From: a virus
Reading direction: 5' to 3' (one strand)
Length of the DNA: 64,000 nt
IMG/VR virus record: IMGVR_UViG_3300030104_003662
Location: 1-64,000 of that record
Made by a program: the position numbers and the translations under genes. The first letter of the stretch is position 1, and each line of letters opens with the position of its first letter. The notes below the pieces were generated by a model. It made no database searches, was not told where the DNA came from, and saw only the letters and a program-made list of their open reading frames with translations. Positions 221 to 35,423 of the stretch are shown here, piece by piece.

Positions 221-257
221 TGGCTTTTTACCTTCATCCCTTTTGGGTTTACTCATG
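221..257 (+). promoter_or_regulatory. TATA-like leaderless promoter, copy 1
   Basis: TGGCTTTTTACC starts at 221. The TTTTTA core (225-230) is centred 27.5 bases before the ATG at 255, the distance expected when an archaeal transcript starts at the start codon. The stretch 221-259 matches 548-586 at about 30 of 39 positions including the ATG, so two adjacent genes share a duplicated start region. No Shine-Dalgarno site is seen. Confidence 0.5.
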
Positions 258-542
258 AGGTCATTTGAACAGGCTTGGCAACTCCTTAAAGAAGAGGCTG
301 AGAACTTTGATGTAGACAACCCGATGCAAGTCGGCAACTATGCGACTCAAGATTTGCCGCACATTACTTGGATGAGTCCTGAAAAAAGAACTGGCTGGGT
401 GGATGGTAACTTGATGTTGTTCGGCCTCCCTCAATGGGCAGCGAGAAACAAACATACAGCGAGTATATCAACGGATAAACAAGAAACTCCTCAAGAGCAT
501 TTTACGAGACAGATGTTTGATGCACAGGGTAAACTAAAATAG
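255..542 (+). CDS. Small AW-x-LLK-tagged protein, function unknown
   Basis: This 95-residue product begins MRSFEQAWQLLK, the first copy of the AW-x-LLK peptide. The start is the ATG at 255 rather than the in-frame TTG at 243, because ATG 255 and ATG 582 align in the duplicated leaders and both lie 27.5 bases from a TATA-like box. The rest is hydrophilic with no motif I recognise. It is the first gene after the gene-free leader, and the next gene starts from a copy of the same promoter. A virion-internal or accessory role is inferred only from the tag. Confidence 0.6.
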   Translation: MRSFEQAWQLLKEEAENFDVDNPMQVGNYATQDLPHITWMSPEKRTGWVDGNLMLFGLPQWAARNKHTASISTDKQETPQEHFTRQMFDAQGKLK

Positions 543-547
543 ACCGC

Positions 548-584
548 TGGCTTTTTACCCTGAGTCGCATTGGCTTTACGCATG
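548..584 (+). promoter_or_regulatory. TATA-like leaderless promoter, copy 2
   Basis: The TTTTTA core at 552-557 is centred 27.5 bases before the ATG at 582, exactly as in copy 1. The near-repeat of 221-259 is most simply a duplication of promoter plus start region. It overlaps the end of the preceding gene by nothing and fills the short intergenic gap. Confidence 0.5.
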
Positions 585-1271
585 GGAGCATTTGATAACG
601 CTTGGTCAGTATTGAAATTAGACCGTTCTCACTTTAACCGCCTTGAGATAGACGACGATGAAGAACTGTCACACGAACCTACCGAGGAATACCCCGGACA
701 GCATCGTGACGAGCCAGTGAAGAACCCAATGCATGAAGCAACAATGGATGAGAGGTTTGAAGAAGAAGAGGCAGAGGGTGTACCTGAAAAGTCTCGTTTG
801 CTTTCTGCTCGCCCGCCTCAAAGACTTGACTTAAGCACTCCTAAGAATCCTTTCCAAAAATCTTGGAACATACTCAAGGCTCGCACTGAGCGGGCTTACT
901 CACCGATGCATGGAGAGCGCGCTCCTACAGCAGAGCAGCGTGCCATCGACCGTAGTGTGAGAATGAAGCCTGACAATTTACAAACTATGACACAACTTGC
1001 GGGCATGCCGCAAGATATTAGTTCAGCGACTGGTGATATATCAAGGCAAACTGAGCGGGCTAATGTCATGCGTGATGAAAGTAGAAACCGTATGGCCGGG
1101 CAAGAAGAACTTGAAATGGGAATGACAGAAGAAGAAGAAGCGGATTATGTCAAATACTTATTAGACAGGAGCAAGGGTGAAGAAGATGCACGCTTTAGAG
1201 AAAGCGCAGGTAGTGAGGGCAGCCCAGCGGGTCGTAACATTGGTGGTCTTTCATCAAGAGTAGCACTATAA
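582..1271 (+). CDS. Two-tag acidic protein, function unknown
   Basis: The 229-residue product starts MGAFDNAWSVLK and has a second tag, NPFQKSWNILKAR, at roughly residues 89-101. Between them is a very acidic stretch rich in Glu, and the C-terminal half is also Glu/Arg-rich and probably helical or disordered. No catalytic motif is visible. ATG 582 is preferred over the in-frame TTG at 570 because it fits the TATA spacing. The second internal tag suggests fusion of two formerly separate tagged proteins, as seen on a larger scale in the gene at 4998. Confidence 0.6.
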   Translation: MGAFDNAWSVLKLDRSHFNRLEIDDDEELSHEPTEEYPGQHRDEPVKNPMHEATMDERFEEEEAEGVPEKSRLLSARPPQRLDLSTPKNPFQKSWNILKARTERAYSPMHGERAPTAEQRAIDRSVRMKPDNLQTMTQLAGMPQDISSATGDISRQTERANVMRDESRNRMAGQEELEMGMTEEEEADYVKYLLDRSKGEEDARFRESAGSEGSPAGRNIGGLSSRVAL

Positions 1272-1283
1272 GGGGAAATTGAA

Positions 1284-1721
1284 ATGCAACCAATCGACGC
1301 AGCATGGAACTTATTGAAAGCAATAAGAATGGATGACGAATATGCCGATGAGCCAATAGACTATGGTGATGCCAATTGGCCCGACGGCCCCGGTCATTTT
1401 ATGTTCACTGGTGGAAAAGGTAGTATGAATCCGTTTAGCGTATCATCAAGACAGAAAATTGGTGACGAGACTCCAGCGCATGCTCAGGTTACAGCGCAGC
1501 GCCCTGCTCATTTGGATAATGCAGAAGAAGCAAGACTGGCTGCATTGTCAGAAGCGCAGGGTACAGTAAGTCCTGAAATGCACATGACACAGTTGCTTGG
1601 TGAATTAACGGCACGATTAGATAACACTATTCCCGGTACTCTTGAAAGAATGCAATTAGAAGAGCGCATCCAAGAGTTGCAAAACCGAGTTAGCCGAATG
1701 GGTCCCGGCTCAAGCCCTTGA
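1284..1721 (+). CDS. AW-x-LLK-tagged protein with C-terminal coiled coil
   Basis: The 145-residue product begins MQPIDAAWNLLKAI. Residues about 100-140 look like a heptad-patterned helix (TLERMQLEERIQELQNRV), so oligomerisation is likely. The middle is Gly/Pro-rich. A GGGGAAA Shine-Dalgarno-like stretch lies about 6 bases before the ATG. The tag-coding DNA is nearly identical to that of the next gene, pointing to recent duplication of the tag. Function unknown. Confidence 0.6.
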   Translation: MQPIDAAWNLLKAIRMDDEYADEPIDYGDANWPDGPGHFMFTGGKGSMNPFSVSSRQKIGDETPAHAQVTAQRPAHLDNAEEARLAALSEAQGTVSPEMHMTQLLGELTARLDNTIPGTLERMQLEERIQELQNRVSRMGPGSSP

Positions 1722-1736
1722 TAAGAAGTGAATAAC

Positions 1737-2426
1737 ATGAAACCAATTGACGCAGCATGGAACTTATTAAAAGCGATACCCTTAGACCCTGACACCCCAT
1801 GGGTGGATGGTAAAGGCATATCAGGTTTTAGAGGCGAAGTATCGGATGCCCACTTTAGAGAAAGTTTACCTAATTTTCCTTTAGGTGCTCATATGCAAAC
1901 TAACGAAATGCCTAATTACACAGATACAGACAGCCGTGGTCGAATTGCAGCGGTTTTAGGTGGAGAAAGGAACATGAGAACAGTGCCTATTAGTCCATAC
2001 GATAGCGACATTACAAGGCAAAGTGCCTATCAATTCGCCCCTCTTGAAAATCCTGACTTCCCACGAGGACATGGAGGCTACAATTACCCAACTGCTAATT
2101 ACCAAGGAGGATTTCCGAAAACTCACAGGCCGACACCCGGTAGCAATCAAGAACTGATTGATGCAATATCAAGGCTTAGTCCTGATGAACAGTATTTGGT
2201 AAATGCAATGAAGGAAAGCCATAGAACCACTCATCCTACTCAGAAAACTCTTGATGAAATGAACATGTCTCGTGACGAATACTTGCAGCATATGCAAGAA
2301 AATGCAACAGCAGCAGCAAGGGCAATGGGCCTAGACAATAATCTACCCGGAGGAAGGTTAGGTGCGGTTGCTAGGTATAGTCAAGACATGACTCCTCCTG
2401 AGTATCAGCAATCCGTATTTGAGTGA
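1737..2426 (+). CDS. AW-x-LLK-tagged protein with possible sigma4-like helix-turn-helix
   Basis: The 229-residue product begins MKPIDAAWNLLKAIP. A GTG lies nine bases upstream in frame, but the ATG at 1737 matches the tag register of its neighbours. Near the C-terminus (about residues 150-205) the pattern LSPDEQYLV ... TLDEMNMSRDEYLQHM resembles the region-4 helix-turn-helix of sigma-type factors. This is weak and may only reflect a generic helical repeat. The middle is Pro/Asn/Tyr-rich. The leader GTGAATAACATGAAACC is shared with the next gene. Confidence 0.55.
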   Translation: MKPIDAAWNLLKAIPLDPDTPWVDGKGISGFRGEVSDAHFRESLPNFPLGAHMQTNEMPNYTDTDSRGRIAAVLGGERNMRTVPISPYDSDITRQSAYQFAPLENPDFPRGHGGYNYPTANYQGGFPKTHRPTPGSNQELIDAISRLSPDEQYLVNAMKESHRTTHPTQKTLDEMNMSRDEYLQHMQENATAAARAMGLDNNLPGGRLGAVARYSQDMTPPEYQQSVFE

Positions 2427-2431
2427 ATAAC

Positions 2432-3214
2432 ATGAAACCCCTTGAGCAAGCGTGGGATTTGCTCAAAGCAAAACAATATCATCACTCTCGTACTGACCGT
2501 TGGATTCCTGAAACACAAACTACACTAGGTCAGCATGGTTTCAAAGGGGCTGCTGATAACTTAACAGACGCTTTGTTAGATGACAATTATGCTTATAGTA
2601 CTGAAAGACCGGATAGTAGAAGAGGAGATTACTATGTCTCTTTACCAAAACAAGACTTAAGGTCAGACACAAGGCGTTATCAAATCCACTCTGCTGATAA
2701 TGATAAAGTGGCTGGTCAGGCTGATATGATGAGAGGTTTACTATCTACAGACAATATGGTACAAGAGGCTTACAAACCGACTTACGCTTTAGTAAATCCT
2801 ACGCATAGGGGTCAAGATTTGTATAACCGTGCTTTGTTAGGTATACTTTCTGCACAAGGACCCGCTGACATAGGTAGTTTGGTATCAAGTGATAGAACAA
2901 TGGCAAGTGCTACTTCTCATCAAAAGTTACAACAAGACTTAGCAAACTTAGGTGAGGGCTACTTTAGCAGAGAAGGCGGGTTGGGTTACGATGAGCCAAC
3001 CTTTAGCCCGCTACCACGCAGTCAAAATGACGAACATACTTATTTGTCACTAGGTAATTACTCTCCGCCAAGTCTATACGGAGACCTTCGTGCAAGAGAC
3101 CCCGGAGGTTTGCCGATGAGAATCATTGACGAACCTCAGTCTGTTGAGGACTTTTCTGAGTCTGACCCAAGCCAAACTATACAAGCAAAATTACCTCAAT
3201 GGGGTATTTACTAA
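2432..3214 (+). CDS. AW-x-LLK-tagged protein, possible GNAT-like fold
   Basis: The 260-residue product begins MKPLEQAWDLLKAK. The central stretch (about residues 115-180) has the pattern YALVNPTHRGQDLYNRALL followed by SLVSSDRTMAS ... HQKLQQDLANLGEGYF. This recalls divergent phage acetyltransferase-like proteins (V-x-P-x-x-RG, then S-D-R ... A ... L ... L-x-x-G), but acetyl-CoA-binding residues are not convincingly complete. The start at ATG 2432 is chosen by analogy with 1737. It is the last gene before the HMG-CoA lyase, which has its own promoter. Confidence 0.5.
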   Translation: MKPLEQAWDLLKAKQYHHSRTDRWIPETQTTLGQHGFKGAADNLTDALLDDNYAYSTERPDSRRGDYYVSLPKQDLRSDTRRYQIHSADNDKVAGQADMMRGLLSTDNMVQEAYKPTYALVNPTHRGQDLYNRALLGILSAQGPADIGSLVSSDRTMASATSHQKLQQDLANLGEGYFSREGGLGYDEPTFSPLPRSQNDEHTYLSLGNYSPPSLYGDLRARDPGGLPMRIIDEPQSVEDFSESDPSQTIQAKLPQWGIY

Positions 3215-3234
3215 TCACTTAGTAGTACCAAACA

Positions 3235-3268
3235 TTTTATTTCATGCACTGCCTTCGGATTCAATATG
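3235..3268 (+). promoter_or_regulatory. TATA-like promoter with GCCTTCGG element
   Basis: TTTTAT at 3235-3240 is centred 28.5 bases before the ATG at 3266. Between box and start lies a 21-base stretch (3245-3265) with GCCTTCGG in the middle; it matches 4157-4177 at 15 of 21 positions. There is no Shine-Dalgarno site, so a leaderless transcript is likely. Confidence 0.5.
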
Positions 3269-4120
3269 GGCCGTTCTCGTGACATTCAAATCTACGAAGT
3301 TGGTCCTCGTGATGGCTTGCAAAATGTTTTATTTGAAACAAGTACTTCTGACAAAGTTGATTTAATAACCAGTCTTCATAAGGCTGGTTTTGAAAATATG
3401 GAAATAACTTCTTTTGTACATCCAAAGTTAGTACCTAATATGTCAGATGCTGAAAAAGTATTTGAGCAAACTAAACACTTAGGTGACTTTGGAGTACTAG
3501 TACCTAATCAAAGAGGCTTTGAAAGGGCCAAATCGGTGGGAGCAAAGAAGTTTAATATATTCTTTTCACCCTCAAGAGAGTTTAATTATCGTAATTTAGG
3601 TAATAGTAACTTGTCTGAGATTCATTGGAAACTACAAAACATGCTTAAAGATGTAGACAGAGAAAATGTAAGAGCGTATATTTCCTGTGCGTTTGGCTGT
3701 CCTTTTGAGGGCAAGCCTTCTGAGCATGATTTGAAAGCAACTGCTGAAATTGCTGACGAATTAGCCAGTGATATTGTTTTATGCGACACTATAGGTAGTT
3801 GTCATCCTTCTCTTATGCGTTGGACTTTAGACAAAGTGAAAAAAGTAGATGCTGATATTGGTCTACATATGCACCACAACTCTAAAAGGACTAATGATAT
3901 ATTTGCAAATATAAAATCTGCATTTGAGTTTGGCATAACAAAGTTAGACTCTAGTATAGGCGGACTTGGAGGTTGCCCATTTATCCCCGGCAGCGGTGGG
4001 AATCTATCAACGAATGCTTTGATAAATTGGGCAAATGACAATGGTTATGAAACAGGAATAGAACTTCGTGATTTGATACCAGCAACAGATTGGGTATCAA
4101 AGTTTGATGCAATAGTCTAA
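3266..4120 (+). CDS. HMG-CoA lyase-like enzyme (DRE-TIM family)
   Basis: The 284-residue product covers the whole family length. It carries GPRDGLQN at residues 13-20 (substrate Arg and metal Asp), MEITSFVHPK at about 50 (conserved Glu), H201-x-H203 as metal ligands, and GGLGGCPFIPGSGGN with the catalytic-loop Cys at 237 and a metal-binding Asn shortly after. All residues I know as essential in hydroxymethylglutaryl-CoA lyases are present, so it is probably active, cleaving HMG-CoA to acetyl-CoA and acetoacetate. Related DRE-TIM lyases acting on similar acyl-CoAs cannot be excluded. It sits alone under its own TATA-like promoter between tagged genes and looks like an auxiliary metabolic gene. 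Confidence 0.88.
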   Translation: MGRSRDIQIYEVGPRDGLQNVLFETSTSDKVDLITSLHKAGFENMEITSFVHPKLVPNMSDAEKVFEQTKHLGDFGVLVPNQRGFERAKSVGAKKFNIFFSPSREFNYRNLGNSNLSEIHWKLQNMLKDVDRENVRAYISCAFGCPFEGKPSEHDLKATAEIADELASDIVLCDTIGSCHPSLMRWTLDKVKKVDADIGLHMHHNSKRTNDIFANIKSAFEFGITKLDSSIGGLGGCPFIPGSGGNLSTNALINWANDNGYETGIELRDLIPATDWVSKFDAIV

Positions 4121-4147
4121 TTAAGTGTAGCAAAACTCACCTACTAG

Positions 4148-4617: not shown

Positions 4618-4654
4618 CACCAATCTTAAGTACAGATTCTTTTTGGAACTGTGC

Positions 4655-4961: not shown

Positions 4962-4968
4962 GGATAGG

Positions 4969-5000
4969 TTTTTGTCTACTCATTACTTCGCAACTTCATG
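4969..5000 (+). promoter_or_regulatory. T-rich promoter box before the five-tag gene
   Basis: TTTTT at 4969-4973 is centred 27 bases before the ATG at 4998, the same spacing as the other TATA-like boxes, and no Shine-Dalgarno site precedes the ATG. The box is weaker (no A) than the others. Confidence 0.35.
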
Positions 5001-7487
5001 CCGACATGCCATGTTTGTGGTCAGGAGTTTCCTTATGGACCTCAAGGCATTGTCGCACATAGTAGGCATGTAGACGAACACTATGGTGTTAATAACCAAA
5101 GTGAAAAGGATGCTATGTTTCAAACAGGCGAACCAATGGACCTCGCTATGCGGTTGCTAAAAAATTACGATATTGAAGAAGTCAAAAGAAACCTTATGAA
5201 TGCTGGTGCATTTGAGGATTATATTGACCATCAAATTGATAATGCACAACCCGGTATGGATAGAAACCTACCACGGCCTTACGGTTTAATGAGCCATCAA
5301 GCGTTAAATCATTTAATGAATGGATTTTATGAAGGTGATATTAGAGAAATGCTTGATGACCCTAATTTTGCTTTTGATAGAAATAAAGAGGGAAAATTGA
5401 TTTGGAATGCTCGTAATTTAGGGGCGGGAGAGCCTGAACATGCTCATCCCGAACATTTAGGTTTTATGATTGAAAATCAATTGGAGGGAACTCCTATAGA
5501 TTTTCAAGGAATAGGAAAAGAGGTTATGTTAAGATGGTTAGAAAATACACCGTGGAAACTTAATGAACCACGAACAAGTAAGTTCTTAGGTTTGGAATTG
5601 AAACCTACATCAACGACTGACTTTTCAAGTACTTACGCATACGGCCCAACTGATACTTTAGAACAAGTTGAAGGAATAAAAGGGCGAGGCTTTCAAGACA
5701 TTATGACAGGCGAACCAATGGACCTCGCTTGGCGACTACTCAAGATGCCGGTTGTTGATACTGACATTCCTGAATTAAGGATGGCCTATGACTTCGATGA
5801 TGAAGTAAGCGAAGCGCGTCAATCTCACCCTCAAGGTATCATAGGTAACAGTCCTTTAATTTCTAATAGACAAGATGAAATCTCTGACATGACTCCCAAT
5901 CAATACTTCGACCTCTTAAACCAATTTTTTATACAAGAGCATGGTAAGAGGCTACCTGATAAAGACGCAGATTATCGCTGGGCCAATATGAGAATGGGGG
6001 CTGAAACACCTAAAGAGCACATAGGTAATATGGTACAAGGTATAGGTGAAGGTCAGGTTATGGGGATGCCTTCTTTGTATTTAGAAAACGACGGGAGAGG
6101 TAACTTTTTCCCAACAGGGCAGCAAGAAGGCGGCCATCGTATGGAGGCTCTAAGGCAAATGGGGCATGGTGATACTCCGGTCCCTGTCCTTCAACAAAAA
6201 CGAGGTTATAACCGTGAGCCTGATAATTCTATAGAAACATTAACCGAAGACCCTAATAGTATTTTTTACGGTGCTGACCACAAACATATGTCGGATTTAT
6301 TACAAACAGGCGAACCAATAGACCTCGCTATGCGGCTGCTTAAGATGCCTATTGTTTCCGATTTACCCGAAGTAAGGCAACTTGATACTGGCCCAGCAAA
6401 CATTCATCAATTTCAAGACCCAGTAACAGGTGAAGTGAAACCGTTGTACATTTCTCCCGCATCAAACCCTGACTCAGAAAATCTTTACGCCGGTATAGTT
6501 GGAGATAACGGCGATAGAGCATCAGCAAAGTTTAACACCGGAGATGGTGATTATGCAAGTTTGGATGGTGTAGAAACACAAGAGCCGTATCGAAGAAGAG
6601 GCTACATGAGTGCAATATATGATGCGATGGATGAATACCTTCAACAAAACAAAACAGGTCGCCGTTTAGTACCAAGCGATTTCCAAAGTGATGAAGGAAA
6701 AGCGTTTTGGGAAAGTAGGAAAAAAAGCGAACCAATGGACATCGCTATGCAGTTGCTTAAGATAAGTGCAGATGAGATAGATGATATAGAAAGGGAAATA
6801 GAAGGCTCTGTAAAAGATTCAAGAAGAACATTCCCTAAAGGTAGGAAAAAAACGAGAAGCATGGGTATGGGGTCAAGTGAAGAGGAATGGGAGCCTAGAG
6901 AACGACCTAATGCTAGACAAGGTAGAAAACCTCTTTCATTTGAACAGCAAGAATCTGAGTGGGATAAATTAGATATGCATCCGGGTAGCCGAGGTCATGA
7001 AATCAACGCACTACGGAGCGAACAGGCTAGAGGGTACCCCCCGGAGTTTGGGACCTTTGCAGATTTAGACGACGGAGATTACCTTTTACAAGAATATAAC
7101 CCTAATATAGAAGAAAACCCATACTGGGGTTCTTTCATTTATCCGGGTTCAGAGACTCGCTATAATGTGCCAAATAATGATTATTGGATAAAGGATGATA
7201 AAATACTGAACTTTCCTCAACGAACCGAATCACTAGAAGAAGTTCCAACATTTTCTCAAACTCCGTTTAACCCTATGACTGATTTTACCCGTAGCGAACC
7301 AATGGACCTTGCTTTCAGATTGCTCAAAGGTGACATACTAGTTGTATCTGAAACAGTAGCAAAAAAATTATGCCCTGCTGGTAAAGCAGCCGCTAAACGC
7401 AAGTTCAAAGTTTATCCGTCAGCCTATGCTAATGGATGGGCTGTGCAGTATTGTAAAGGTAAGTTTAGGGGGAAAAAGAAAAAATGA
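4998..7487 (+). CDS. Five-tag modular protein: C2H2 finger, ParB-like, GNAT-like and basic modules
   Basis: The 829-residue product contains five AW-x-LLK-type tags near residues 43, 237, 437, 577 and 766, three of them reading TGEP(M/I)DLA(M/W)RLLK. The segments differ. Residues 1-42 form a C2H2-like finger (CHVC ... HSRHVDEH). Residues 250-436 contain GQQEGGHRMEALRQMGHG, the ParB/sulfiredoxin-type loop. Residues 450-576 contain EPYRRRGYMSAIYDAMDEYL and a C-terminal FW pattern of GNAT acetyltransferases. Residues 56-236 and 589-765 are unknown. Residues 777-829 are Lys-rich with CPAGKAAAKRKF ... YPSAYANGWAVQYCKGK, a motif common in phage structural genes. It looks like a concatenation of cargo units, possibly a polyprotein cut at the tags. 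Confidence 0.75.
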   Translation: MPTCHVCGQEFPYGPQGIVAHSRHVDEHYGVNNQSEKDAMFQTGEPMDLAMRLLKNYDIEEVKRNLMNAGAFEDYIDHQIDNAQPGMDRNLPRPYGLMSHQALNHLMNGFYEGDIREMLDDPNFAFDRNKEGKLIWNARNLGAGEPEHAHPEHLGFMIENQLEGTPIDFQGIGKEVMLRWLENTPWKLNEPRTSKFLGLELKPTSTTDFSSTYAYGPTDTLEQVEGIKGRGFQDIMTGEPMDLAWRLLKMPVVDTDIPELRMAYDFDDEVSEARQSHPQGIIGNSPLISNRQDEISDMTPNQYFDLLNQFFIQEHGKRLPDKDADYRWANMRMGAETPKEHIGNMVQGIGEGQVMGMPSLYLENDGRGNFFPTGQQEGGHRMEALRQMGHGDTPVPVLQQKRGYNREPDNSIETLTEDPNSIFYGADHKHMSDLLQTGEPIDLAMRLLKMPIVSDLPEVRQLDTGPANIHQFQDPVTGEVKPLYISPASNPDSENLYAGIVGDNGDRASAKFNTGDGDYASLDGVETQEPYRRRGYMSAIYDAMDEYLQQNKTGRRLVPSDFQSDEGKAFWESRKKSEPMDIAMQLLKISADEIDDIEREIEGSVKDSRRTFPKGRKKTRSMGMGSSEEEWEPRERPNARQGRKPLSFEQQESEWDKLDMHPGSRGHEINALRSEQARGYPPEFGTFADLDDGDYLLQEYNPNIEENPYWGSFIYPGSETRYNVPNNDYWIKDDKILNFPQRTESLEEVPTFSQTPFNPMTDFTRSEPMDLAFRLLKGDILVVSETVAKKLCPAGKAAAKRKFKVYPSAYANGWAVQYCKGKFRGKKKK
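5124..5161 (+). repeat. Tag-coding DNA repeat, copy 1 of 5
   Basis: The stretch coding TGEPMDLAMRLLK. Its core GGCGAACCAATGGACCTCGC recurs almost unchanged at 5706-5744, 6306-6344, about 6727-6762 and 7293-7329, far more alike than the intervening modules. The near-identity suggests duplication or recombination at tag boundaries. Confidence 0.65.
5706..5744 (+). repeat. Tag-coding DNA repeat, copy 2 of 5
   Basis: Codes TGEPMDLAWRLLK. The first 24 bases are identical to copy 1. Confidence 0.65.
6306..6344 (+). repeat. Tag-coding DNA repeat, copy 3 of 5
   Basis: Codes TGEPIDLAMRLLK. It differs from copy 1 by one base in the first 24, changing Met to Ile. Confidence 0.65.
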
Positions 7488-7792
7488 CCCGTTGCACTTG
7501 CCATGATGTACTTATTGTTAAAGACTTGAATCGTTGGTTCAAAGAGAAATGGGTAGATGTATCGCGCAAAGACAAAGATGGCAAGCACCCTCCTTGTGGC
7601 AGAAGCAAGGCTAAAAAGTCTAGCAAAGGCTATCCAAAGTGTAGACCAAGTGTAAAGGTTAGTAGTAAGACTCCAAAGACAAGCGGCTCTATGAGCGAAG
7701 GTCAAAAGCAAGCCGCTACTAAGCGCAAACGGTCTAAAAAGCAAGGTGTTGGTGGAAAACCTACTATAGTAAAAATGGTTAGGGTGGTCTAA
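7484..7792 (+). CDS. Small basic protein, DUF5872-like
   Basis: The 102-residue product is Lys/Arg/Ser-rich. Residues 18-55 read WFKEKWVDVSRKDKDGKHPP then CGRSKAKKS ... YPKCRPS, a pattern I associate with a small-protein family of phages and giant viruses (DUF5872; name from memory). The C-terminal half is a lysine-rich tail. Such proteins probably bind nucleic acid, for example as genome-condensing virion proteins; this is inference. ATG 7484 overlaps the preceding stop and the gene's last base is the A of the next ATG, so translation is coupled. Confidence 0.7.
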   Translation: MTRCTCHDVLIVKDLNRWFKEKWVDVSRKDKDGKHPPCGRSKAKKSSKGYPKCRPSVKVSSKTPKTSGSMSEGQKQAATKRKRSKKQGVGGKPTIVKMVRVV

Positions 7793-8127
7793 TGGACTAC
7801 GACTTTTGCGACTGTTGTACTCCAGCAGAAATTAGTTTTGAGTTTCTAAAGGCTAAAAAGAAGTCAAAGCCATTTCACGGTTACAATCCAAACAAACATA
7901 GCAAAAAAGGCGGTCTAAATGCCAAAGGTCGTGCTGCGGCTAAGCGTAAAAGTGGAGCAAATCTAAAACCACCGGTTACTACAAAGCCATCTAAACTTAA
8001 GCCCGGCTCAAAAAAGGCTAAGCGTCGTAAATCATTTTGTGCTCGTATGAGTGGCGTAAAGGGTCCAACCAGTAAAAAGGGCAAACTTACTCCTAAAGGT
8101 GCATCACTAAAGAGGTGGAACTGTTGA
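7792..8127 (+). CDS. Small basic protein with degenerate tag (RRKSFCARM family)
   Basis: The 111-residue product has a Cys cluster at its start (CDCC), then PAEISFEFLKAKKK, which aligns with P-[MIL]-[DE]-x-A-W-x-L-L-K as a degenerate tag. The remainder (GGLNAKGRAAAKRKSGANLK, LKPGSKKAKRRKSFCARMSG and GKLTPKGASLKRWNC) is a pattern widespread in marine phages and algal giant viruses (I recall it as DUF6321, from memory). It is very basic and probably binds nucleic acid. Start overlaps the previous stop; its stop overlaps the next start. Confidence 0.75.
   Translation: MDYDFCDCCTPAEISFEFLKAKKKSKPFHGYNPNKHSKKGGLNAKGRAAAKRKSGANLKPPVTTKPSKLKPGSKKAKRRKSFCARMSGVKGPTSKKGKLTPKGASLKRWNC
8113..8126 (+). 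promoter_or_regulatory. Shine-Dalgarno site selecting a TTG start
   Basis: GAGGTGG at 8113-8119 lies five bases before TTG at 8124. It supports TTG 8124 over the in-frame GTG at 8115, which would sit inside the site. Confidence 0.5.
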
Positions 8128-8324
8128 ATAACGATGCTATGGCTTATGCTTGGCGCATTATGAAGGGTAAAGAAGACGCACCTAATTACCGATGCCCAGC
8201 CGATGACCCAAAGGAAAGTTGTGGAACTTGTCGTCACTGGGTAGGCAAAGGAAACGGAATGGGTCATTGTAAGTTGTTTGACTTTGATTGCAACGGTAAG
8301 TGTACTTGCGATGCTTGGGGTTGA
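8124..8324 (+). CDS. AW-x-LLK-tagged cysteine-rich metal-binding protein
   Basis: The 66-residue product starts MNNDAMAYAWRIMKGK, a tag variant. It is followed by a compact Cys-rich domain with CPADDPKESCGTCRHW, GHCKLFDFDC and CTCDAW, eight cysteines in about 43 residues. The spacing suggests a zinc or iron-sulfur site and resembles small high-potential iron protein-like phage proteins, which I cannot confirm. TTG is chosen because of the Shine-Dalgarno spacing; it overlaps the previous stop in TTGA. The tag joined directly to a different domain type is another instance of the modular pattern. Confidence 0.65.
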   Translation: MNNDAMAYAWRIMKGKEDAPNYRCPADDPKESCGTCRHWVGKGNGMGHCKLFDFDCNGKCTCDAWG

Positions 8325-8328
8325 TAAT

Positions 8329-8778
8329 ATGAATCCGATGGACCTTGCTTGGATTGTTCTTAAAGCAAGTAGTGTCGAAAGTACTATTGTTAGAACTTTG
8401 AAAGACGAAGGCGGCGCTGCTGGCCTTGATGCTTTGATGAAACCGCTTAGTATTTCTGAGGCTGAACTTAAAGCCAAGTTAAAAGATATGGCAAATGTAA
8501 CACAGCATCGTAATGGTGATTATATTTTAACAGACGGTTTGCACAAGCATGCTTCTTCTCCCGAAGCACTGCGTCATAAAGTAGAGTATGATAAAAAATA
8601 TGAATCTAATCCTGAAAGAGTCAAATATCGTGAGTCTTTGAACCAAGAGCGTCGTAAGCGTGGTATTTATGGGCAAGGTGGCCCTGATATGAGCCATACC
8701 AAAGAAGGCACTATGGTCGCAGAAAACCCTCATGCAAACCGTGCTCGTCATTTCAAAGAGCGAGGCACGCTTAAGTAA
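8329..8778 (+). CDS. AW-x-LLK-tagged protein with HNH-like C-terminus
   Basis: The 149-residue product begins MNPMDLAWIVLKAS at the ATG four bases after the previous stop. A longer upstream frame from 8278 exists but would run through the previous gene. Residues about 20-80 look like a winged-helix-type segment (TIVRTLKDEGG ... ISEAELKAKLKDM ... NGDYILTDG). The C-terminal third (YESNPERVKYRESLNQERRK, then GGPDMSHTKEGTMVAENPHA, then NRARHF) resembles phage HNH-like proteins, with His in SHTKEG and Asn in NPHANRAR at the usual places. Nuclease activity is possible, but the first His is in SH rather than the common DH. Confidence 0.6.
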   Translation: MNPMDLAWIVLKASSVESTIVRTLKDEGGAAGLDALMKPLSISEAELKAKLKDMANVTQHRNGDYILTDGLHKHASSPEALRHKVEYDKKYESNPERVKYRESLNQERRKRGIYGQGGPDMSHTKEGTMVAENPHANRARHFKERGTLK

Positions 8779-8798
8779 TATCACACGGTAGGGTAAGC

Positions 8799-9011
8799 GT
8801 GGAAGATTGGTGGAGCATACTACTGACTGATATGTTAAAACAGTCAGAAAAAGATATTATGCATCTTGATGCTTTCGTAGACGAAAAAGACTCTTGGAAA
8901 GACATCTCATTATTGATGAATGCAGTAGACCATTATCGCTTTTTGCGACAGGCTTATGAAAACAGAGGCAGTGGGAATGTACATGTCGAAGTCAGATTTG
9001 TCACCGAGTGA
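8799..9011 (+). CDS. Small acidic helical protein
   Basis: The 70-residue product from GTG 8799 begins MEDWWSILLTDMLKQSEKDI and is predicted helical and acidic. The tag-like W-x-x-L-L pattern at the start is too loose to count as a tag copy. It overlaps the following gene by about 30 bases. I do not recognise it. Confidence 0.45.
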   Translation: MEDWWSILLTDMLKQSEKDIMHLDAFVDEKDSWKDISLLMNAVDHYRFLRQAYENRGSGNVHVEVRFVTE

Positions 9012-10200
9012 CGCTGCTTGGGCTGTCTTAAAACAGACAAATGACCCTGACAAGATTGAGAAAATCTTACCTCTTATTCCTTTAGCACTAGCAGGGTATG
9101 GTGCTTATCGTGGCTATCAAAATGTTACTGACCCAAGGGGTCCGGTAGTAACTGACCCTCTTACTGGCGGTTATCTTTACGAGCGTGAGGTAGACCCTAC
9201 GCTTGGAGGTTATGCTGCTGCTTTTGGCTCAGGTGCACTAGAAGGCGTTGGATTAGGAGGGGCTGCGAAACTTGGTGCTAAAGGAGTTTCAAGATTAGCA
9301 GGTAGTTCTGCATCAAAAAGAGCCGCAGCACGACAAGCAGCGTCAGACCATGCTCGTAAGGAAACTACCGAAAGGTTGGCTCGCCAAGAAGCAGATACAG
9401 CATTAGCCGCTCTTAACAGAAGCCCAATTACGCCCGGCGGTAATGTAACTTATGCACCGGCTAGACTTCCAAGTAACTTAGATGATATGGCAATGGCAAG
9501 AGCAAGAACGAGTCCTTATGTTACAGGTCAAGCGAGAGGTGCAGCAAGGGCCGCTTATGCACCCGGAGCACGAAGAGAAGCCGTTGCACGAGGTGTGCAA
9601 AGAGGTGCTGGCAAAGTAGACGATGCACTGTCCGCAAGAGCATTAGGTTATGGAGCGCTAGGAGCCGGGGCGCTAGGACTTGGTGGAGCATATTTAGCAA
9701 ATCGAGCACAAGAGGGATTAGAAAACGCATATCCTGACCCAAATACCTCCGGCTTTGGTGCTTATGGTGGTACTGGTAGCGGTGGTTTTGGTCAAAGTAA
9801 TACAGGCGGTGCTGCTAGTGGCTTTGGCGAAGGCACTGGTATTGGTGGCGTGAGTAATCAATCCAGTAAAAGGACTGGTCTTCAAGACATTTGGACTGGT
9901 AAAGAGAACACTATGCAATTTGGCGGAGGATTTGGCATGGGTGAAAAGGCAACAAAAGGTGAGAATATGAAAATAGGAGAAAGAATGTTAAAACAAGCAG
10001 AAGATATAATGTACAAAGCAGTTTGCCCAGCATGTGGTAAAAAGGACTGTAATTGTAAAGAGTACAAGAACAAAAAGGAAGATAGTAAGAAGCCCGCTCA
10101 TGGTATGGTTATTGTTATCGGTACTAAAGCGGGTCCCGGTCCATATAAAAATGGAAAGCGGGAAAAACTAGACTCTGAAAAAGACGAAAAAGAAGAGTGA
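8983..10200 (+). CDS. Tagged Ala/Gly-rich membrane-active candidate with C-terminal zinc knuckle
   Basis: The 405-residue product begins MSKSDLSPSDAAWAVLKQ if started at ATG 8983 (ATGs at 8956 and 8977 are alternatives). After the tag comes a hydrophobic Gly-containing segment (ILPLIPLALAGYGAYRGY), then a long Ala/Arg-rich region, a second Gly/Ala helix (ALGYGALGAGALGLGGAYLA), a Gly/Ser/Phe low-complexity stretch and a terminal CPACGKKDCNC knuckle with a Lys-rich tail. Two Gly-zipper-like hydrophobic helices in an otherwise soluble protein fit a genome-injection or internal ejection protein. That is inference. A structured inverted repeat follows the stop. Confidence 0.6.
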   Translation: MSKSDLSPSDAAWAVLKQTNDPDKIEKILPLIPLALAGYGAYRGYQNVTDPRGPVVTDPLTGGYLYEREVDPTLGGYAAAFGSGALEGVGLGGAAKLGAKGVSRLAGSSASKRAAARQAASDHARKETTERLARQEADTALAALNRSPITPGGNVTYAPARLPSNLDDMAMARARTSPYVTGQARGAARAAYAPGARREAVARGVQRGAGKVDDALSARALGYGALGAGALGLGGAYLANRAQEGLENAYPDPNTSGFGAYGGTGSGGFGQSNTGGAASGFGEGTGIGGVSNQSSKRTGLQDIWTGKENTMQFGGGFGMGEKATKGENMKIGERMLKQAEDIMYKAVCPACGKKDCNCKEYKNKKEDSKKPAHGMVIVIGTKAGPGPYKNGKREKLDSEKDEKEE

Positions 10201-10343: not shown

Positions 10344-10349
10344 ACTATT

Positions 10350-20904: not shown

Positions 20905-20936
20905 TTTTATGACACCAAAAAGGGGAGACAATCATG
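20905..20936 (+). promoter_or_regulatory. TATA-like box before the LAGLIDADG gene
   Basis: TTTTAT at 20905-20910 is centred 26.5 bases before ATG 20934, and GTGT...ACAC flanks it as a short dyad. GGGGAGA lies about five bases before the same ATG, so translation could also be Shine-Dalgarno driven on a read-through message. Confidence 0.4.
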
Positions 20937-24392: not shown

Positions 24393-24767
24393 ATGACAGA
24401 CGAGGGGGAAACTAACACCGCAGAAAAACTAATGGGCGCGCTCATTAGTAAAATGGAAAACATGGATAATAGTATTCAATTAATCAAAGCAGAGAATAAA
24501 CAATTAAAATCTATGCTCAATAACCCAATGACTTTGCTAAAAAAGGCAGGTTTTGTAAGAGCAAGTAACAGTGCACCCGAAGATTTGATGCCTGATGAGT
24601 TTAGAGGAAACTCTGATGAAATGATAATCAAGGGTGAAGACGGGCATGAAATATCAGTACCTACAAACAACGCCGATTTCCATACTATGGAATGGGCCGA
24701 TATTCATGCACTTGCTGATAAGGCTAAAAGTGTAGGTGCGATTGGAAATAACATTGGAATGGATTGA
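24393..24767 (+). CDS. Small coiled-coil protein with C-terminal HALA motif
   Basis: The 124-residue product (start after GAGGTGAT) has a coiled coil at about 10-45 (LISKMENMDNSIQLIKAENK), an acidic middle and the C-terminal MEWADIHALADKAKSVGA. The latter matches MNWDEVHALAGSVWN at the end of the protease-scaffold protein. A shared terminal peptide suggests both bind the same partner, perhaps the major capsid protein, making this a scaffold-like factor. Confidence 0.5.
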   Translation: MTDEGETNTAEKLMGALISKMENMDNSIQLIKAENKQLKSMLNNPMTLLKKAGFVRASNSAPEDLMPDEFRGNSDEMIIKGEDGHEISVPTNNADFHTMEWADIHALADKAKSVGAIGNNIGMD

Positions 24768-30657: not shown

Positions 30658-30690
30658 TTATATAGTATGGTCATTCTCTATAGAAGCATG
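30658..30690 (+). promoter_or_regulatory. TATA box of the capsid operon
   Basis: TTATATA at 30658-30664, the clearest TATA box in the window, overlaps the preceding stop codon region. It is centred 27 bases before ATG 30688. This favours a leaderless start at 30688 rather than the ATG at 30667, which lies too close to the box to be transcribed from it. Confidence 0.55.
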
Positions 30691-32064
30691 GTCGCCTCAC
30701 TTTCACTGAGAACCTCTCCCGTTCATCACGAGGGGAATATCAGTATCATTAAGGCAGGTAACGACCTTGTAATCGCTGGTTATGCCAGTGTCGAAATGGT
30801 TGACAAGCAAGGAGACCTAATTACTCGTGGAGCACTAAAAGACGCTTTTGGTAACTTTATGAAAGCAGAAGATTTTAGAAATGTACAACTCGCACACTCT
30901 AACATACAAGTTGGTAGTGTAATACCACAATACACTGACTCTGACGGTCGTGTGTGGAAATCCGGTGTCGATGACGCCGGTATGTTCGTAGTCATCCAAC
31001 TAAGAGATGACATCGAAAAGGCTCGTGAAGTAGCCAATGATATTCGCAAAGGTAACCTAACTGGTTTCAGCATCGGAGGTCAAGCGTTTAAGAGAATGCG
31101 TAAGGCCGATGATAAACACGGAGACTATACAGAAATCTCCAAGTTGGAACTGCATGAAGTTACTATTTGTGAAAAAGGTATTAACCCGGAGGCGACATTC
31201 CGTATATTGAAGGAGGACACAGATATGACAAGTGAAACAGAAACATTAGCAGAACTTTCTAGTGTCTTAGACCGAATGAGCAAACATATGGATTCAATGG
31301 AGAAGGGCGACCTTCCTCCTTTTATGGAATCCAAAGATGATGCTAAAGACGAGTCTAAGGATGAGAAAGATGACGCACCTAAAGATGAGGCGAAAGATAT
31401 GAAAGACGAAGAGAAAAAGGCATACGATGATATGGAAAAGAGCGAATACTCTGATGTAATATCAAGTGAATACCTAAACTGGATGGAAAACACCTTGAAA
31501 TCACAAGGCGTTGACACCAGTGCGGCAAGAAGTCACTTTGACGATGTCGCTAAGGCTAACCTTGGTAGTACACCTGAGCAGATTGGAGATGGAGCAGACT
31601 ACTTTGCAGGTCAAGTTAAAGGCCGTGCACAAGAAGGTGGCAACCCATCTACTGGCGCTATAGGAAAAGTAAACAGTGGTAAAGTAGAGAAAGGTTACTT
31701 GCACCCAAGTAATGTTAGTTCAACTGACATCGAGGCTGCATACGAAGTCTACAAGGCCGCTGCTCTTGAAGAACAATTCAAGGGTTCCTTGAACAATGTA
31801 TTTTCAGACCGCCTTGCAAAGGAAATGAATGCAGATGCAGAGGCTCGCGCAGCAGCACAATTTGACGCTCGTGCACCACTAAGTAACATCGAGAAAGCAA
31901 TTGCTGACCTTGGTGCTAGAATTGACGACCTTGCTACAAAACCAGCAGGTATAGAAATCCGTAAAGCAACAGACAACTCCACCGTAGAGATTCCTTCAAC
32001 AGAGGAACTCGGTAACATGAACTGGGATGAGGTACACGCTCTAGCAGGGAGTGTATGGAATTAA
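30688..32064 (+). CDS. Prohead protease fused to scaffold
   Basis: The 458-residue product (ATG 30688 by promoter spacing; ATG 30667 adds seven residues) has an S78/U35-type maturation protease at about 15-170, with GYASVEMVDKQGDLITRGAL (31-50), the catalytic His70 in LAHSN and the nucleophile Ser128 in LTGFSIGG. After about 175 the chain is acidic and helical (Asp/Glu/Lys repeats about 200-260) and ends in a scaffold-like domain with a C-terminal MNWDEVHALAGSVWN. It should direct capsid assembly and then cleave itself and partners. It lies directly before the major capsid gene. Confidence 0.88.
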   Translation: MVASLSLRTSPVHHEGNISIIKAGNDLVIAGYASVEMVDKQGDLITRGALKDAFGNFMKAEDFRNVQLAHSNIQVGSVIPQYTDSDGRVWKSGVDDAGMFVVIQLRDDIEKAREVANDIRKGNLTGFSIGGQAFKRMRKADDKHGDYTEISKLELHEVTICEKGINPEATFRILKEDTDMTSETETLAELSSVLDRMSKHMDSMEKGDLPPFMESKDDAKDESKDEKDDAPKDEAKDMKDEEKKAYDDMEKSEYSDVISSEYLNWMENTLKSQGVDTSAARSHFDDVAKANLGSTPEQIGDGADYFAGQVKGRAQEGGNPSTGAIGKVNSGKVEKGYLHPSNVSSTDIEAAYEVYKAAALEEQFKGSLNNVFSDRLAKEMNADAEARAAAQFDARAPLSNIEKAIADLGARIDDLATKPAGIEIRKATDNSTVEIPSTEELGNMNWDEVHALAGSVWN

Positions 32065-32079
32065 TTGGGGGAATGAAAT

Positions 32080-33252
32080 ATGGCAAGAAATTATATGAGA
32101 ACAGTAAACGATATGGAGCGCTATTATTATGGCGCGGGACAGAGCATGGGATATTCCTACAGTGGTTCAGAACTACTAAAGGCAGATGCACCAATGCTGA
32201 GCACAACCGCAGGTACATACCAAGCAATTTATGGCCGCAAAGTTTGGAGTCAATTGAACCAAGAGTTCAACGCATTCTCCATTCTGCCTAAGAAGCCTTG
32301 GGACAGAAGTGGTTGGAGAGTAGTTACCGCTAAGCCGTCAACATCTGTTGGTGGCGGAGTTGCAGAAAATGCAACCCTACCGGACACAACCAAGCCTACA
32401 TTCCAGCATGTTGCAGCAAAGCCTAAGACTATTGCACACACATTCGATATGTCCGAAACCGCTATTTTCCTTAATGACAAGGATGACGGTCTAGGTGACA
32501 TTCGCTCAGTCCTTAAAGAGGAAATGGGTAAGCACCACGCAGAGCACATCAACCAAATGCTAACACAAGACAGCGAAACACCAGCAGGTAATGACATCGA
32601 GTCTATTGACAGAGTTACTGGAAACGACGGTGGCTCATCCGGTGGATTAACATCTATGGAAACTGGTGCATCAGCAGGTACAGACCACTGTGGCGCTAGT
32701 GATTTAGACATCTACAGCATTGACCGAAGTGCAAACTCTTGGTCTAACGCAGAAGTTGACTGTGGTAGTGACAGAGCAGCAGGTAACCGCCGTACTCTAA
32801 GTCTTGACCACTTGGATACCATCTTCCAAAAGGTTTGGATTCGTGGTGGTAACCCGAAGGTTATGCTAACAGGATATGACACTCTAATGCGTATTCAGCA
32901 ACTTCTACAATCTCAACAGAGATTCATGGAGGAAAAGCGTGTTGTACCAACTTACAACGGTGTAAAAGGTGTACCGGGTGTTGAGGCTGGATTTATAGTC
33001 GCAACTTACAACGGTGTCCCAATCATTCCATCTAAGGATGTACAAGCAGACGGCATTAGCAGAATCTACATGCTTGACACTGACTACCTATACTACAGTA
33101 CTGCGAAACCAACTCAATACTTTGAGTCCGGTATCGAAACTGGAGACCCATTCGCTGTTAACAGACTAGGGCAAGAAGGACTTTACCGCACAATGGGTGA
33201 AGTTTGGACTACTTTCTTTGGAGGTCAAGGTTCAATTCGTGACCTACAGTGA
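32080..33252 (+). CDS. Major capsid protein, HK97-like
   Basis: The 390-residue product has HK97-type features: an N-terminal helical arm, PWDRSGWRVVTAKP, HTFDMSETAIFLNDKDDG (E-loop/spine helix area), and a C-terminal half with LDHLDTIFQKVW ... PKVMLTGYDTLMRIQQLLQ and PIIPSKDV ... RIYMLDTDYLYY typical of A-domain strands. It follows the protease and has a GGGGAATGA site before ATG 32080. No long N-terminal delta domain is visible, fitting a scaffold supplied by the protease fusion. Confidence 0.85.
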   Translation: MARNYMRTVNDMERYYYGAGQSMGYSYSGSELLKADAPMLSTTAGTYQAIYGRKVWSQLNQEFNAFSILPKKPWDRSGWRVVTAKPSTSVGGGVAENATLPDTTKPTFQHVAAKPKTIAHTFDMSETAIFLNDKDDGLGDIRSVLKEEMGKHHAEHINQMLTQDSETPAGNDIESIDRVTGNDGGSSGGLTSMETGASAGTDHCGASDLDIYSIDRSANSWSNAEVDCGSDRAAGNRRTLSLDHLDTIFQKVWIRGGNPKVMLTGYDTLMRIQQLLQSQQRFMEEKRVVPTYNGVKGVPGVEAGFIVATYNGVPIIPSKDVQADGISRIYMLDTDYLYYSTAKPTQYFESGIETGDPFAVNRLGQEGLYRTMGEVWTTFFGGQGSIRDLQ

Positions 33253-33287
33253 GGATTAATGGTGGAAAATAAAGGAGATGAATAAAT

Positions 33288-33737: not shown

Positions 33738-33751
33738 GGTGATTCGACTTG
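33736..33751 (+). promoter_or_regulatory. GAGGTGAT Shine-Dalgarno before a TTG start
   Basis: GAGGTGAT at 33736-33743 is an eight-base match to the usual 16S 3' end complement, five bases before TTG 33749. It decides the start and illustrates the GGTGAT-type site used by many genes here. Confidence 0.6.
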
Positions 33752-34147
33752 CCTACAGTAACCTTTCTAGGACCAATGATGTATCGTCGTAAGAGCGATG
33801 TATCAGGTCAATGGGTAAGGGGAGAGCCTGTTGAAGTTAGTCAGGAATGGCTAAATAAACACAGAGTCAGAATGTCACCTGAAACCTTCAAGATAGAAGG
33901 AGACGAAGGTGTAACAGTAGACGCTGGTAACGACGGACTCCCTGATAGTGGCTGGACTAAAAAAGACATAGGCGCATGGCTTAAAGGAAAAGGTGAAGTT
34001 GTAAGTGGATATACTACCAAGAGCAAGTTGCTCGACATGGTAAAGACCACTCTCAACCCACCTGCTCCTGAGCCGGAACCAGTAGTCGAAGAAGTCCCAG
34101 TCGAAGAGGCAGTTGAAGAACAAGATATAATAGGAGATGAAGAATAA
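33749..34147 (+). CDS. Head-tail region protein with HeH/SAP-like domain
   Basis: The 132-residue product begins with a short beta region (VTFLGPMMYRRKSD, GEPVEVSQEWLNKH) and continues with GWTKKDIGAWLKGKGEVVSG ... TKSKLLDMVK (about 70-103), a helix-extension-helix pattern seen in small phage head proteins. The tail is acidic and Pro-rich (PEPEPVVEEVPVEEAVEE). Similar proteins follow capsid genes in many tailed phages. The stop overlaps the next ATG. Confidence 0.6.
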   Translation: MPTVTFLGPMMYRRKSDVSGQWVRGEPVEVSQEWLNKHRVRMSPETFKIEGDEGVTVDAGNDGLPDSGWTKKDIGAWLKGKGEVVSGYTTKSKLLDMVKTTLNPPAPEPEPVVEEVPVEEAVEEQDIIGDEE

Positions 34148-34470
34148 TGGCAGTAACAATAGACGCAAGACCAAGTTATTTTGGTGACAGAATGATAGTA
34201 ACAGGCTCATATGAAGCAACGGACACATCAATAGATTTGGGTAGTTTGCTTGCAAGTATTGACGCAGTAATAGTTAATCCGATAGCAGCAGGTAACCTTG
34301 CAAAAGTTCAGCATATAGACATCGCTGGTGGCACATCATATGCAGCAGTAGATTTGACTTTGCCCGGAGATATGGCTACTTTCGCTGGCACTACAATTAC
34401 TATAAGTGTCGGTGCAGTAGGGCACAATACCACTGGTGGAACATTCTTAGCAATAGGTCGCCGCTCTTGA
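34147..34470 (+). CDS. Small beta-rich head protein
   Basis: The 107-residue product is beta-predicted (RMIVTGSYEATDTSIDLGSL ... TTITISVGAVGHNTTGGTFL) with low charge. It sits in a TAATG overlap after the HeH protein. A capsid-binding or trimer protein is likely from composition and place; no family recognised. Confidence 0.5.
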   Translation: MAVTIDARPSYFGDRMIVTGSYEATDTSIDLGSLLASIDAVIVNPIAAGNLAKVQHIDIAGGTSYAAVDLTLPGDMATFAGTTITISVGAVGHNTTGGTFLAIGRRS

Positions 34471-34481
34471 GGTGACGACTG

Positions 34482-34688
34482 ATGGGTAGTGCAAACTTAG
34501 CAGCATTAAAGTCTAAAGTGGTAGGACCTCTATCACCGGCTGACTTTTCAGGCGCTACAGCAATCCAAACTGCACTTGATGCAGGTTTTGACGCAGTGAC
34601 AGATGCTGATACAGCAGATACGATAGTTGGTATTGAAATGCTCAATGTCTTGGGAAATGCTTATTTGGTAATCATTTACAAGGCTTGA
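34482..34688 (+). CDS. Very small head-region protein
   Basis: The 68-residue product, Ala/Asp-rich, starts after GAGGTGA. LSPADFSGATAIQTALDAGF and the C-terminal LNVLGNAYLVIIYKA suggest a mixed alpha/beta fold. Unknown. Confidence 0.45.
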   Translation: MGSANLAALKSKVVGPLSPADFSGATAIQTALDAGFDAVTDADTADTIVGIEMLNVLGNAYLVIIYKA

Positions 34689-34698
34689 GTGGGATAAT

Positions 34699-34983
34699 AT
34701 GGAGTCTAACGACAACCTTGACTTGAATGACATTGAGCGCTTGCAGAAGCGTGGTATTAGGCTTAACGAGTCTTATGGAGCATCGGTAAGAACTGATGAA
34801 GATAATCCACTTGCAGGTTTGACATTAAAGCAACGCAACCGTAATAAGAACGCTGGTGATGTGTTAAACATTGGTAGTGGGACTAGATGCAAGCACTGTG
34901 GTATGCTTTATTTCTGCTGGGTAGATACCTGTAGAACATGTGGTAAGCAAGTAGATTTTAATTTAGGGAGTAGAGAACAATGA
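34699..34983 (+). CDS. Zinc-ribbon protein
   Basis: The 94-residue product is charged at the N-terminus and carries CKHCGMLYFCWVDTCRTCG (about 66-84), with CxxC ... CxxC forming a zinc ribbon. Its stop overlaps the next start. The location among connector genes suggests a structural or assembly role; it is one of several metal-knuckle proteins in this genome. Confidence 0.6.
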   Translation: MESNDNLDLNDIERLQKRGIRLNESYGASVRTDEDNPLAGLTLKQRNRNKNAGDVLNIGSGTRCKHCGMLYFCWVDTCRTCGKQVDFNLGSREQ

Positions 34984-35423
34984 CAGTTTATATTTTGAAA
35001 CAACCCAATCCACACCGTCAAAAGATATTAGTCGACGGTAAGCCAACTAGATTAGGAAGGTGGGCTAATAGAAAAGCAGCAAAGGCTGTTGGAGAACTTG
35101 GAGGAGACCGTGCAGGTCCTGACTGGCAAATGGCTCGTGATAATTTAATCCAAGAAGCGATGGCTAATCCACAAGCACACGGTATTGAGTTCTTAGATGG
35201 AGTGCCCGAAGGTGCCCAAGAACCACAAATGAATCAACCTAATGTCACAAGTGAAGAACAAACCGCAATAGAGCAAGGCTATCCACCCGAAGCAGCGGCA
35301 CCTGCTCCAAGCGAGCCTCCTCACGGAGGTCACCCTGACTTTATGTATCGCAAGTCGTTTGATGACGCTTGGTCTATTTTGAAACAACAGGGTTATTCAA
35401 GTGGTAACGCTTGGCTAAGGTGA
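34980..35423 (+). CDS. Connector-region protein with C-terminal AW-x-LLK tag
   Basis: The 147-residue product begins with a basic region (HRQKILVDGKPTRLGRWANR), has a Pro/Glu-rich middle, and ends FMYRKSFDDAWSILKQQGYS plus ten further residues. The FDDAWSILK tag is thus at the C-terminus, the only such case, and this is the only tagged gene within the head/connector block. That makes it a candidate link between the tag and a structural component. Otherwise unknown. Confidence 0.55.
   Translation: MTVYILKQPNPHRQKILVDGKPTRLGRWANRKAAKAVGELGGDRAGPDWQMARDNLIQEAMANPQAHGIEFLDGVPEGAQEPQMNQPNVTSEEQTAIEQGYPPEAAAPAPSEPPHGGHPDFMYRKSFDDAWSILKQQGYSSGNAWLR

Follow-up and report, generated by a model that had tools for sequence, protein, structure and literature searches.

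A ten-residue tag on unrelated proteins of magroviruses is probably a capsid-targeting peptide

Introduction

Why would a virus attach one short peptide to proteins that are otherwise unrelated? The question is raised by a 64-kb stretch of DNA (the window), the first part of the 96,799-bp IMG/VR record IMGVR_UViG_3300030104_003662, whose remaining sequence was also examined. A ten-residue block, P-[MIF]-[DE]-x-A-W-x-[LV]-L-K (the tag), occurs 19 times in 12 genes of the window, at either end of the encoded proteins or between their domains. The source genome is a magrovirus, a tailed virus of Poseidoniales/MGII archaea. We propose that the tag is probably a capsid-targeting peptide, the magrovirus counterpart of the capsid-targeting sequence (CTS) of phage T4, and that it is cut after its final lysine (K10) by the S78 prohead protease of the virus. 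If this is true, a ten-letter tag loads weapons such as host-modifying enzymes into the shells of viruses that infect abundant ocean archaea.

The CTS of the T4 proteins IPI-III and Alt is an N-terminal peptide of 10–20 residues, the sole conserved part of these proteins, which directs them into the prohead core (PMC3012670, PMC7411985). It is removed by the prohead protease gp21, and the cargo, which includes the ADP-ribosyltransferase Alt, enters the cell together with the DNA (PMC3012670, PMC7411985). In the literature we found no full-text paper that combines "capsid targeting" and "archaeal virus", and the words motif and scaffold are absent from the main magrovirus survey. If the proposal holds, archaeal viruses would have their first known delivery tag of this kind in the peptide described here.

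Results

A profile of the tag was trained on 16 magrovirus genomes and scanned over their proteins, a score of at least 10 being taken as a match. We found 205 matches in the real proteins versus four in reversed and four in shuffled proteins, and a chance origin of the tag is excluded. By position, tags were classed as N-terminal (96 matches), internal (98) or C-terminal (22). The sequence logo comprises exactly ten positions, with information at positions 1–3, 5, 6 and 8–10, and conservation ends abruptly past K10. N-terminal tags have a Met at −2 or −3, and internal tags have [GS]E in front. The hydrophobic positions 2, 5, 6, 8 and 9 form the pattern of an amphipathic helix, which would also suit a membrane-binding or degradation signal that is amphipathic by coincidence. 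We consider such a signal very improbable, given that the strict P1, D3, A5, W6 and K10 and the sharp end at K10 are too specific for a membrane helix and that the internal copies sit between domains.

Every copy reported in the window by the initial annotation of this sequence was found where it had been placed. The ATG start codons chosen there (255 and 582, among others) are preferred over the slightly upstream starts of the open reading frame list (243 and 570, among others), which fit worse, as the usual place of Met in an N-terminal tag is two or three residues ahead of position 1. The 19 copies are as follows.

261–290, plus strand: SFEQAWQLLK, N-terminal, gene 243/255–542
588–617, plus strand: AFDNAWSVLK, N-terminal, gene 570/582–1271
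849–878, plus strand: PFQKSWNILK, internal, gene 570–1271
1290–1319, plus strand: PIDAAWNLLK, N-terminal, gene 1284–1721
1743–1772, plus strand: PIDAAWNLLK, N-terminal, gene 1728/1737–2426
2438–2467, plus strand: PLEQAWDLLK, N-terminal, gene 2423/2432–3214
5133–5162, plus strand: PMDLAMRLLK with TGE in front, gene 4998
5715–5744, plus strand: PMDLAWRLLK, followed by a ParB-like domain (MPVVD..), gene 4998
6315–6344, plus strand: PIDLAMRLLK, followed by a GNAT-like domain, gene 4998
6732–6761, plus strand: PMDIAMQLLK, gene 4998
7299–7328, plus strand: PMDLAFRLLK, followed by a small basic domain, gene 4998
7822–7851, plus strand: degenerate tag PAEISFEFLK ahead of DUF6321 (Pfam, E=4e-17), gene 7792–8127
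8136–8165, plus strand: degenerate tag AMAYAWRIMK (score 18.1), N-terminal, Cys-rich gene 8115/8124–8324
8335–8364, plus strand: PMDLAWIVLK, N-terminal, gene 8278/8329–8778
9004–9033, plus strand: PSDAAWAVLK, N-terminal, gene 8956/8983–10200
15309–15341, plus strand: PMEDAWSSLM-K, gene 14910
15534–15566, plus strand: PIDDAWSSLM-K, gene 14910
15747–15779, plus strand: PIDDAWSSLI-K, gene 14910
35355–35384, plus strand: SFDDAWSILK, C-terminal, gene 34980–35423

Both degenerate tags belong to families with clear tags in relatives, and gene 8278/8329–8778 has homologs in 10 relatives, not counting the near-twin genome G005. An additional N-terminal tag lies beyond the window, in gene 87332–88144 on the plus strand.

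The domains attached to the tag had been described as unrelated, and this held far beyond the window. Among the 16 relatives and other IMG/VR contigs, 567 non-identical tagged proteins with 626 post-tag domains fell into approximately 284 unrelated families by BLAST, 188 of them single. Thirty-eight domain families were found behind N-terminal as well as internal tags, and in 139 N-terminal/internal pairs (<90% identity) homology begins no more than five residues from K10. Because homology in such pairs starts at the lysine of the tag, the exchange unit is the tag together with the domain that follows it. This hypervariable cargo, shuffled exactly at the tag, is what would be expected of a recombination seam, a stretch kept for swapping cargo genes and devoid of function as a protein. 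That explanation deserves almost no credence, as it is the amino acids that are conserved: the peptide PMDLAWRLLK is encoded by 13 distinct DNA sequences with 66% identity at third positions, so that the tag is selected as protein and not as a DNA repeat.

Most tagged families are unknown proteins; those recognised are DUF5872, DUF6321, SLOG/DprA, ParB-like, GNAT, HD, D12 DNA methylase, DnaJ zinc and zinc-ribbon. Several domains may be joined in one protein, as in the following gene of the window.

4998–7487, plus strand: multi-domain tagged protein of 829 residues with five tags between its domains

Its product has a weak GNAT match, a ParB-like domain (from reading the sequence and a PHROG match in the tagged set) and basic domains, and proteins of relatives join DUF5872, HD, GNAT and others. 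Disparate domains within one polypeptide also characterise the polyvalent proteins of Iyer et al. (2017), multi-domain mixtures of ADP-ribosyltransferase (ART), ParB-like, GNAT, peptidase and kinase-like domains that are predicted to be co-injected with DNA, and whose host-modifying members have T4 Alt as their prototype (PMC5512222). By analogy, the tagged cargo repertoire resembles these injected effectors. The model of one tagged family, which begins LLK-MPYHGT, had KptA/Tpt1 and DarT1, both ART folds, as its top Foldseek matches (probability ≤0.99, E=0.025, with a modest model pLDDT of 59), and another YHGT protein had a weak Pfam ART-PolyVal match (E=0.0023, below the curated cut-off). 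Motifs resembling the G-loop and catalytic loop of kinases were seen by eye in L228:941–2137, and kinase motifs likewise in gene 87332; neither had Pfam or Protein Data Bank (PDB) support, and we do not claim a kinase identity for them. DUF5872 (7484–7792) and DUF6321 (7792–8127) are adjoining small basic proteins and are among the best-kept accessory genes, with 85–88% identity where present.

The genome carries TerL, portal, S78 protease and HK97-type capsid genes on one strand, and thermosome-, clamp-, RFC- and PolB-like genes (assigned by eye) on the opposite strand; it combines a magrovirus major capsid protein (MCP) with archaeal-type replication genes, as members of the Magrovirales do. 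The window MCP is 61–98% identical to those of its relatives and has distant relatives in the Druskaviridae, in agreement with the published placement of magroviruses, whose MCP adjoins that family (PMC8651126).

When IMG/VR was searched with two exact degenerate patterns, 55 and at least 119 stretches were matched. Of 91 tag-bearing records, 79 contained a magrovirus MCP, six more a magrovirus TerL, and five of the last six other magrovirus genes; no link could be made between magroviruses and the remaining contig, L145, whose match may be due to chance. The exact patterns matched none of 84,980 cellular genomes, a result that, as the patterns are strict, excludes only good copies; the set is based on GTDB, from which we assume that Poseidoniales are represented. 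The initial annotation had named an equal occurrence in cellular proteins with no virus link as an observation that would count against its capsid-loading proposal and had suggested a profile search of marine viral and archaeal metagenomes. With zero exact cellular matches, the tag is confined to magroviruses, which share one head module. The haloviruses HVTV-1 (60–102 kb) and HCTV-1 (57–98 kb), whose MCP is 33% identical, contained no tag in the stretches given, apart from one weak match in HCTV-1 (score 11.5).

Tagged genes almost always have the late, head-gene orientation. Of 122 tagged genes, 116 point the same way as TerL, versus 565 of 1014 untagged genes (Fisher p=1e-20), and 117 are located between −40 and +25 kb from TerL. 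They are also hypervariable: the window genes from 243 to 3214 have no homolog in any relative checked, though the MCP is about 77% identical. An untagged HMG-CoA-lyase-like (HMGL) gene, with relatives in 10 other genomes, lies within the cargo region at 3266–4120. Near TerL there is also a core tagged protein.

14910–16499, plus strand: core tagged protein with three tags, a few genes upstream of TerL

The number of tags is one to three in each of the 13 orthologs found, a count that includes the window gene and its near-twin in G005. G009, G011, G026 and G030 form a clade in which a C-terminal tag is instead borne by a gene of this neighbourhood.

A tag that docks viral proteins to a host factor such as the clamp, ribosome, chaperonin or RNA polymerase, with no involvement of the virion, would be compatible with a cargo whose targets are probably the host or DNA, and with the exceptions to the late orientation, namely gene 87332 and a small number of tagged genes in relatives. 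We regard this as improbable: it does not account for the late setting of nearly all tagged genes, for the confinement of the tag to viruses of one head type, or for the Lys-Ala-Asp link to the capsid protein described below. Gene 87332 (L003:8333–9145) sits within the oppositely oriented replication half of the genome.

Because a tag resembling the T4 CTS should end in a protease site, we searched for one at the tag end. Among 322 family representatives, the residue after K10 (+11) was Ala in 73 versus 23 expected, Pro in one versus 27 and Leu in three versus 20; Arg was depleted as well, and Glu was enriched. At +12, Asp was found in 60 versus 24 expected, and Pro occurred at its normal rate. 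These effects hold against 455 other [LIVM]LK sites of the same proteomes (Pro p=9e-8, Ala p=5e-5, Asp p=6e-4). Of the eight distinct LKAD contexts among those control sites, six were the MCP. The features concerned are the following.

30667–32064, plus strand: S78 prohead protease with a C-terminal scaffold-like part (Pfam Peptidase_S78, PF04586, E=1.4e-10, catalytic domain score above cut-off; PHROG head maturation protease)
30745–30753, plus strand: conserved IIK29 directly ahead of the protease domain, a candidate self-cleavage site
31204–31212, plus strand: conserved ILK182 at the end of the protease domain, a candidate self-cleavage site
32080–33252, plus strand: MCP (Pfam SU10_MCP, E=2.2e-8; PHROG major head protein, E=4.8e-56)
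32173–32187, plus strand: LLK34-A35-D36, near the N-terminus of the MCP

K34, A35 and D36 of the MCP do not vary across 28 aligned sequences, which include HVTV-1 and HCTV-1 and go down to 33% identity; K-S-D stands at this site in two further magroviruses. HVTV-1 has MSK-ADN at the place of the MCP K-A-D, LRK-ADG further upstream and VVSK-ADG past its protease domain. Among 47 core families, conserved [LIVM][LIM]K triplets were found only in the MCP (two) and in the protease (two, flanking the catalytic domain), and the flanking sites of the protease are kept in more divergent magroviruses, for example as GSDFILK-A. The lack of any partner among head proteins had been named at the outset as a finding that would speak against capsid targeting; from the tag-end site and the MCP K-A-D, the S78 protease can now be put forward as a candidate partner.

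The same data could be read as a tag for docking only, which binds the scaffold, the capsid protein or the protease and remains uncut, with the preferences after K10 reflecting helix capping. Ala/Glu enrichment at +11 is compatible with a continuing helix, the W-to-LLK spacing is variable in gene 14910, and C-terminal tags cannot work through release. However, the helix formers Leu and Arg are depleted at +11, Pro is avoided at +11 alone and not at +12, and Asp at +12 agrees with the K-A-D of the MCP. On balance we think docking without cleavage unlikely.

Another shared peptide, (M/T)-x-W-x-x-(I/V)-H-x-(L/M)-A, is found at 24687–24716 and 32017–32046. It forms the end of the protease-scaffold protein and of the product of the small gene 24393, in 15 of 15 and 16 of 16 genomes, and occurs in no other protein scanned. 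It is likely a scaffold docking peptide, which would mark 24393 as a scaffold. The tag could not be aligned convincingly with this C-terminal peptide, and we rejected the idea that it is a remnant of it.

Discussion

The initial annotation had likened the tag to the capsid-targeting peptides of T4. At the level of sequence, this proposal is strengthened by the confinement of the tag to magroviruses, its location in the late block, a hypervariable cargo that resembles effectors and a putative protease site shared with the MCP. In the mechanism that we favour, capsid targeting followed by cleavage, the amphipathic block would recruit any protein that carries it into the assembling head by docking to a partner there, and the end of the tag would be a site for the S78 prohead protease, with the preference [LVI]-L-K followed by Ala-Asp. 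Cleavage after K10 during head maturation would free N-terminally tagged cargo and would cut multi-tag proteins, such as the product of gene 4998, into separate domains. The cargo set free in this way, which includes domains of ADP-ribosyltransferase-like, ParB-like, acetyltransferase, DNA-modifying and DNA-binding type, would remain inside the head and then pass into the archaeal cell along with the DNA, an injection that we infer from the late gene setting. It is quite possible, if hardly to be relied upon, that archaeal viruses have a universal grammar for cargo, in which one and the same tag, placed at will before, between or after domains, serves as both a ticket to the head and a cut site, multi-tag genes being polyproteins that are cut in the capsid into injected effectors.

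Several observations weigh against this mechanism. Cleavage at a C-terminal tag cannot free the cargo, so that docking and cleavage may be two distinct functions; tags of this kind suggest that docking rather than release is the function common to all copies. In gene 14910, one extra residue lies between W and LLK and the terminal lysine is shifted one residue later in all three copies (AWSSLM-K). The MCP and the protease share with the tag only the [LI][LI]K end and not P-x-D-x-A-W; the MCP is the most conserved protein, which makes it likelier to contain conserved triplets by chance, and its second triplet, VLK146, is located within the fold and probably does not serve as a site. Both protease sites adjoin ordinary strands of the S78 fold. 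The AlphaFold model of the MCP (pLDDT 32) was unusable for placing K34 or a propeptide boundary relative to the HK97 fold, and a search for solved structures returned only the MCP of cyanophage Mic1, a partial match that gives no information on the N-terminus. The haloviruses lack the tag in the roughly 40-kb stretches scanned, and in the literature we found no virion proteomics, cleavage or docking data for any magrovirus.

There are well-known examples, in T4, SPN3US and P1, of prohead proteases that act at a single motif in the MCP, in themselves and in targeted cargo (PMC7411985, PMC10052503, PMC12810830). The magrovirus tag, whose layout is known from sequence, resembles the CTS in being a short conserved N-terminal peptide on otherwise unrelated proteins. 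Unlike the CTS, it ends in Leu-Leu-Lys rather than in a Glu-ending gp21-type site and has no sequence in common with it; it also occurs internally, C-terminally and several times per protein, on hundreds of families, and in archaeal viruses. By analogy, we think it probable that it works like the CTS, without being a member of that group by sequence, cleavage residue or position.

In the Dar system of phage P1, the N-terminal 30-residue signal of DarB is sufficient for loading this injected defence protein into the capsid (PMC9024508), and the prohead protease trims DarA (DarA/Hdf) and the MCP (PMC12810830). The N-terminal loading signal and the trimming of both cargo and MCP are parallels to what we propose for magroviruses; in the literature examined, the P1 signal has been demonstrated for DarB alone, whereas one tag is common to the whole magrovirus cargo set. 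In the giant phage SPN3US, gp245 cuts the propeptides of head and ejected proteins at a common A-x-E motif with a preference for a small P1' residue (PMC10052503). One motif for several proteins and a small residue after the cut would likewise apply to the putative magrovirus site, but the SPN3US propeptides are mostly long, are not a shared docking peptide and have a site that ends in Glu. Polyvalent proteins differ in another respect, as magrovirus domains tend to have a tag each and also occur as single tagged genes; the paper on polyvalent proteins describes no shared tag between domains, and the term "peptide motif" does not occur in it (PMC5512222).

With a tag that can be recognised, hundreds of orphan proteins become a list of likely virion-delivered effectors that is open to testing, and the mechanism outlined above would give a first model of how archaeal tailed viruses deliver proteins. 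Its prediction is sharp, a cut after Lys where Ala-Asp follows, and the cultivated halovirus HVTV-1 offers a test of it. If a short tag functions at both ends of proteins as well as in their interior, it could also be useful as a loading signal.

Other features of the genome

The gene between TerL and portal (20934–22241) is kept in all relatives checked and contains an HNH/LAGLIDADG-like endonuclease part, with a PHROG HNH endonuclease match and the sequence FLDADGY spotted by eye. TerL of G031, G032 and G034, about 53% identical to that of the window, has one in-frame TGA per matched frame. Finally, a late protein of 5727 residues is encoded at 45352–62535; it takes up more than one sixth of the genome and is approximately 49% identical in relatives.

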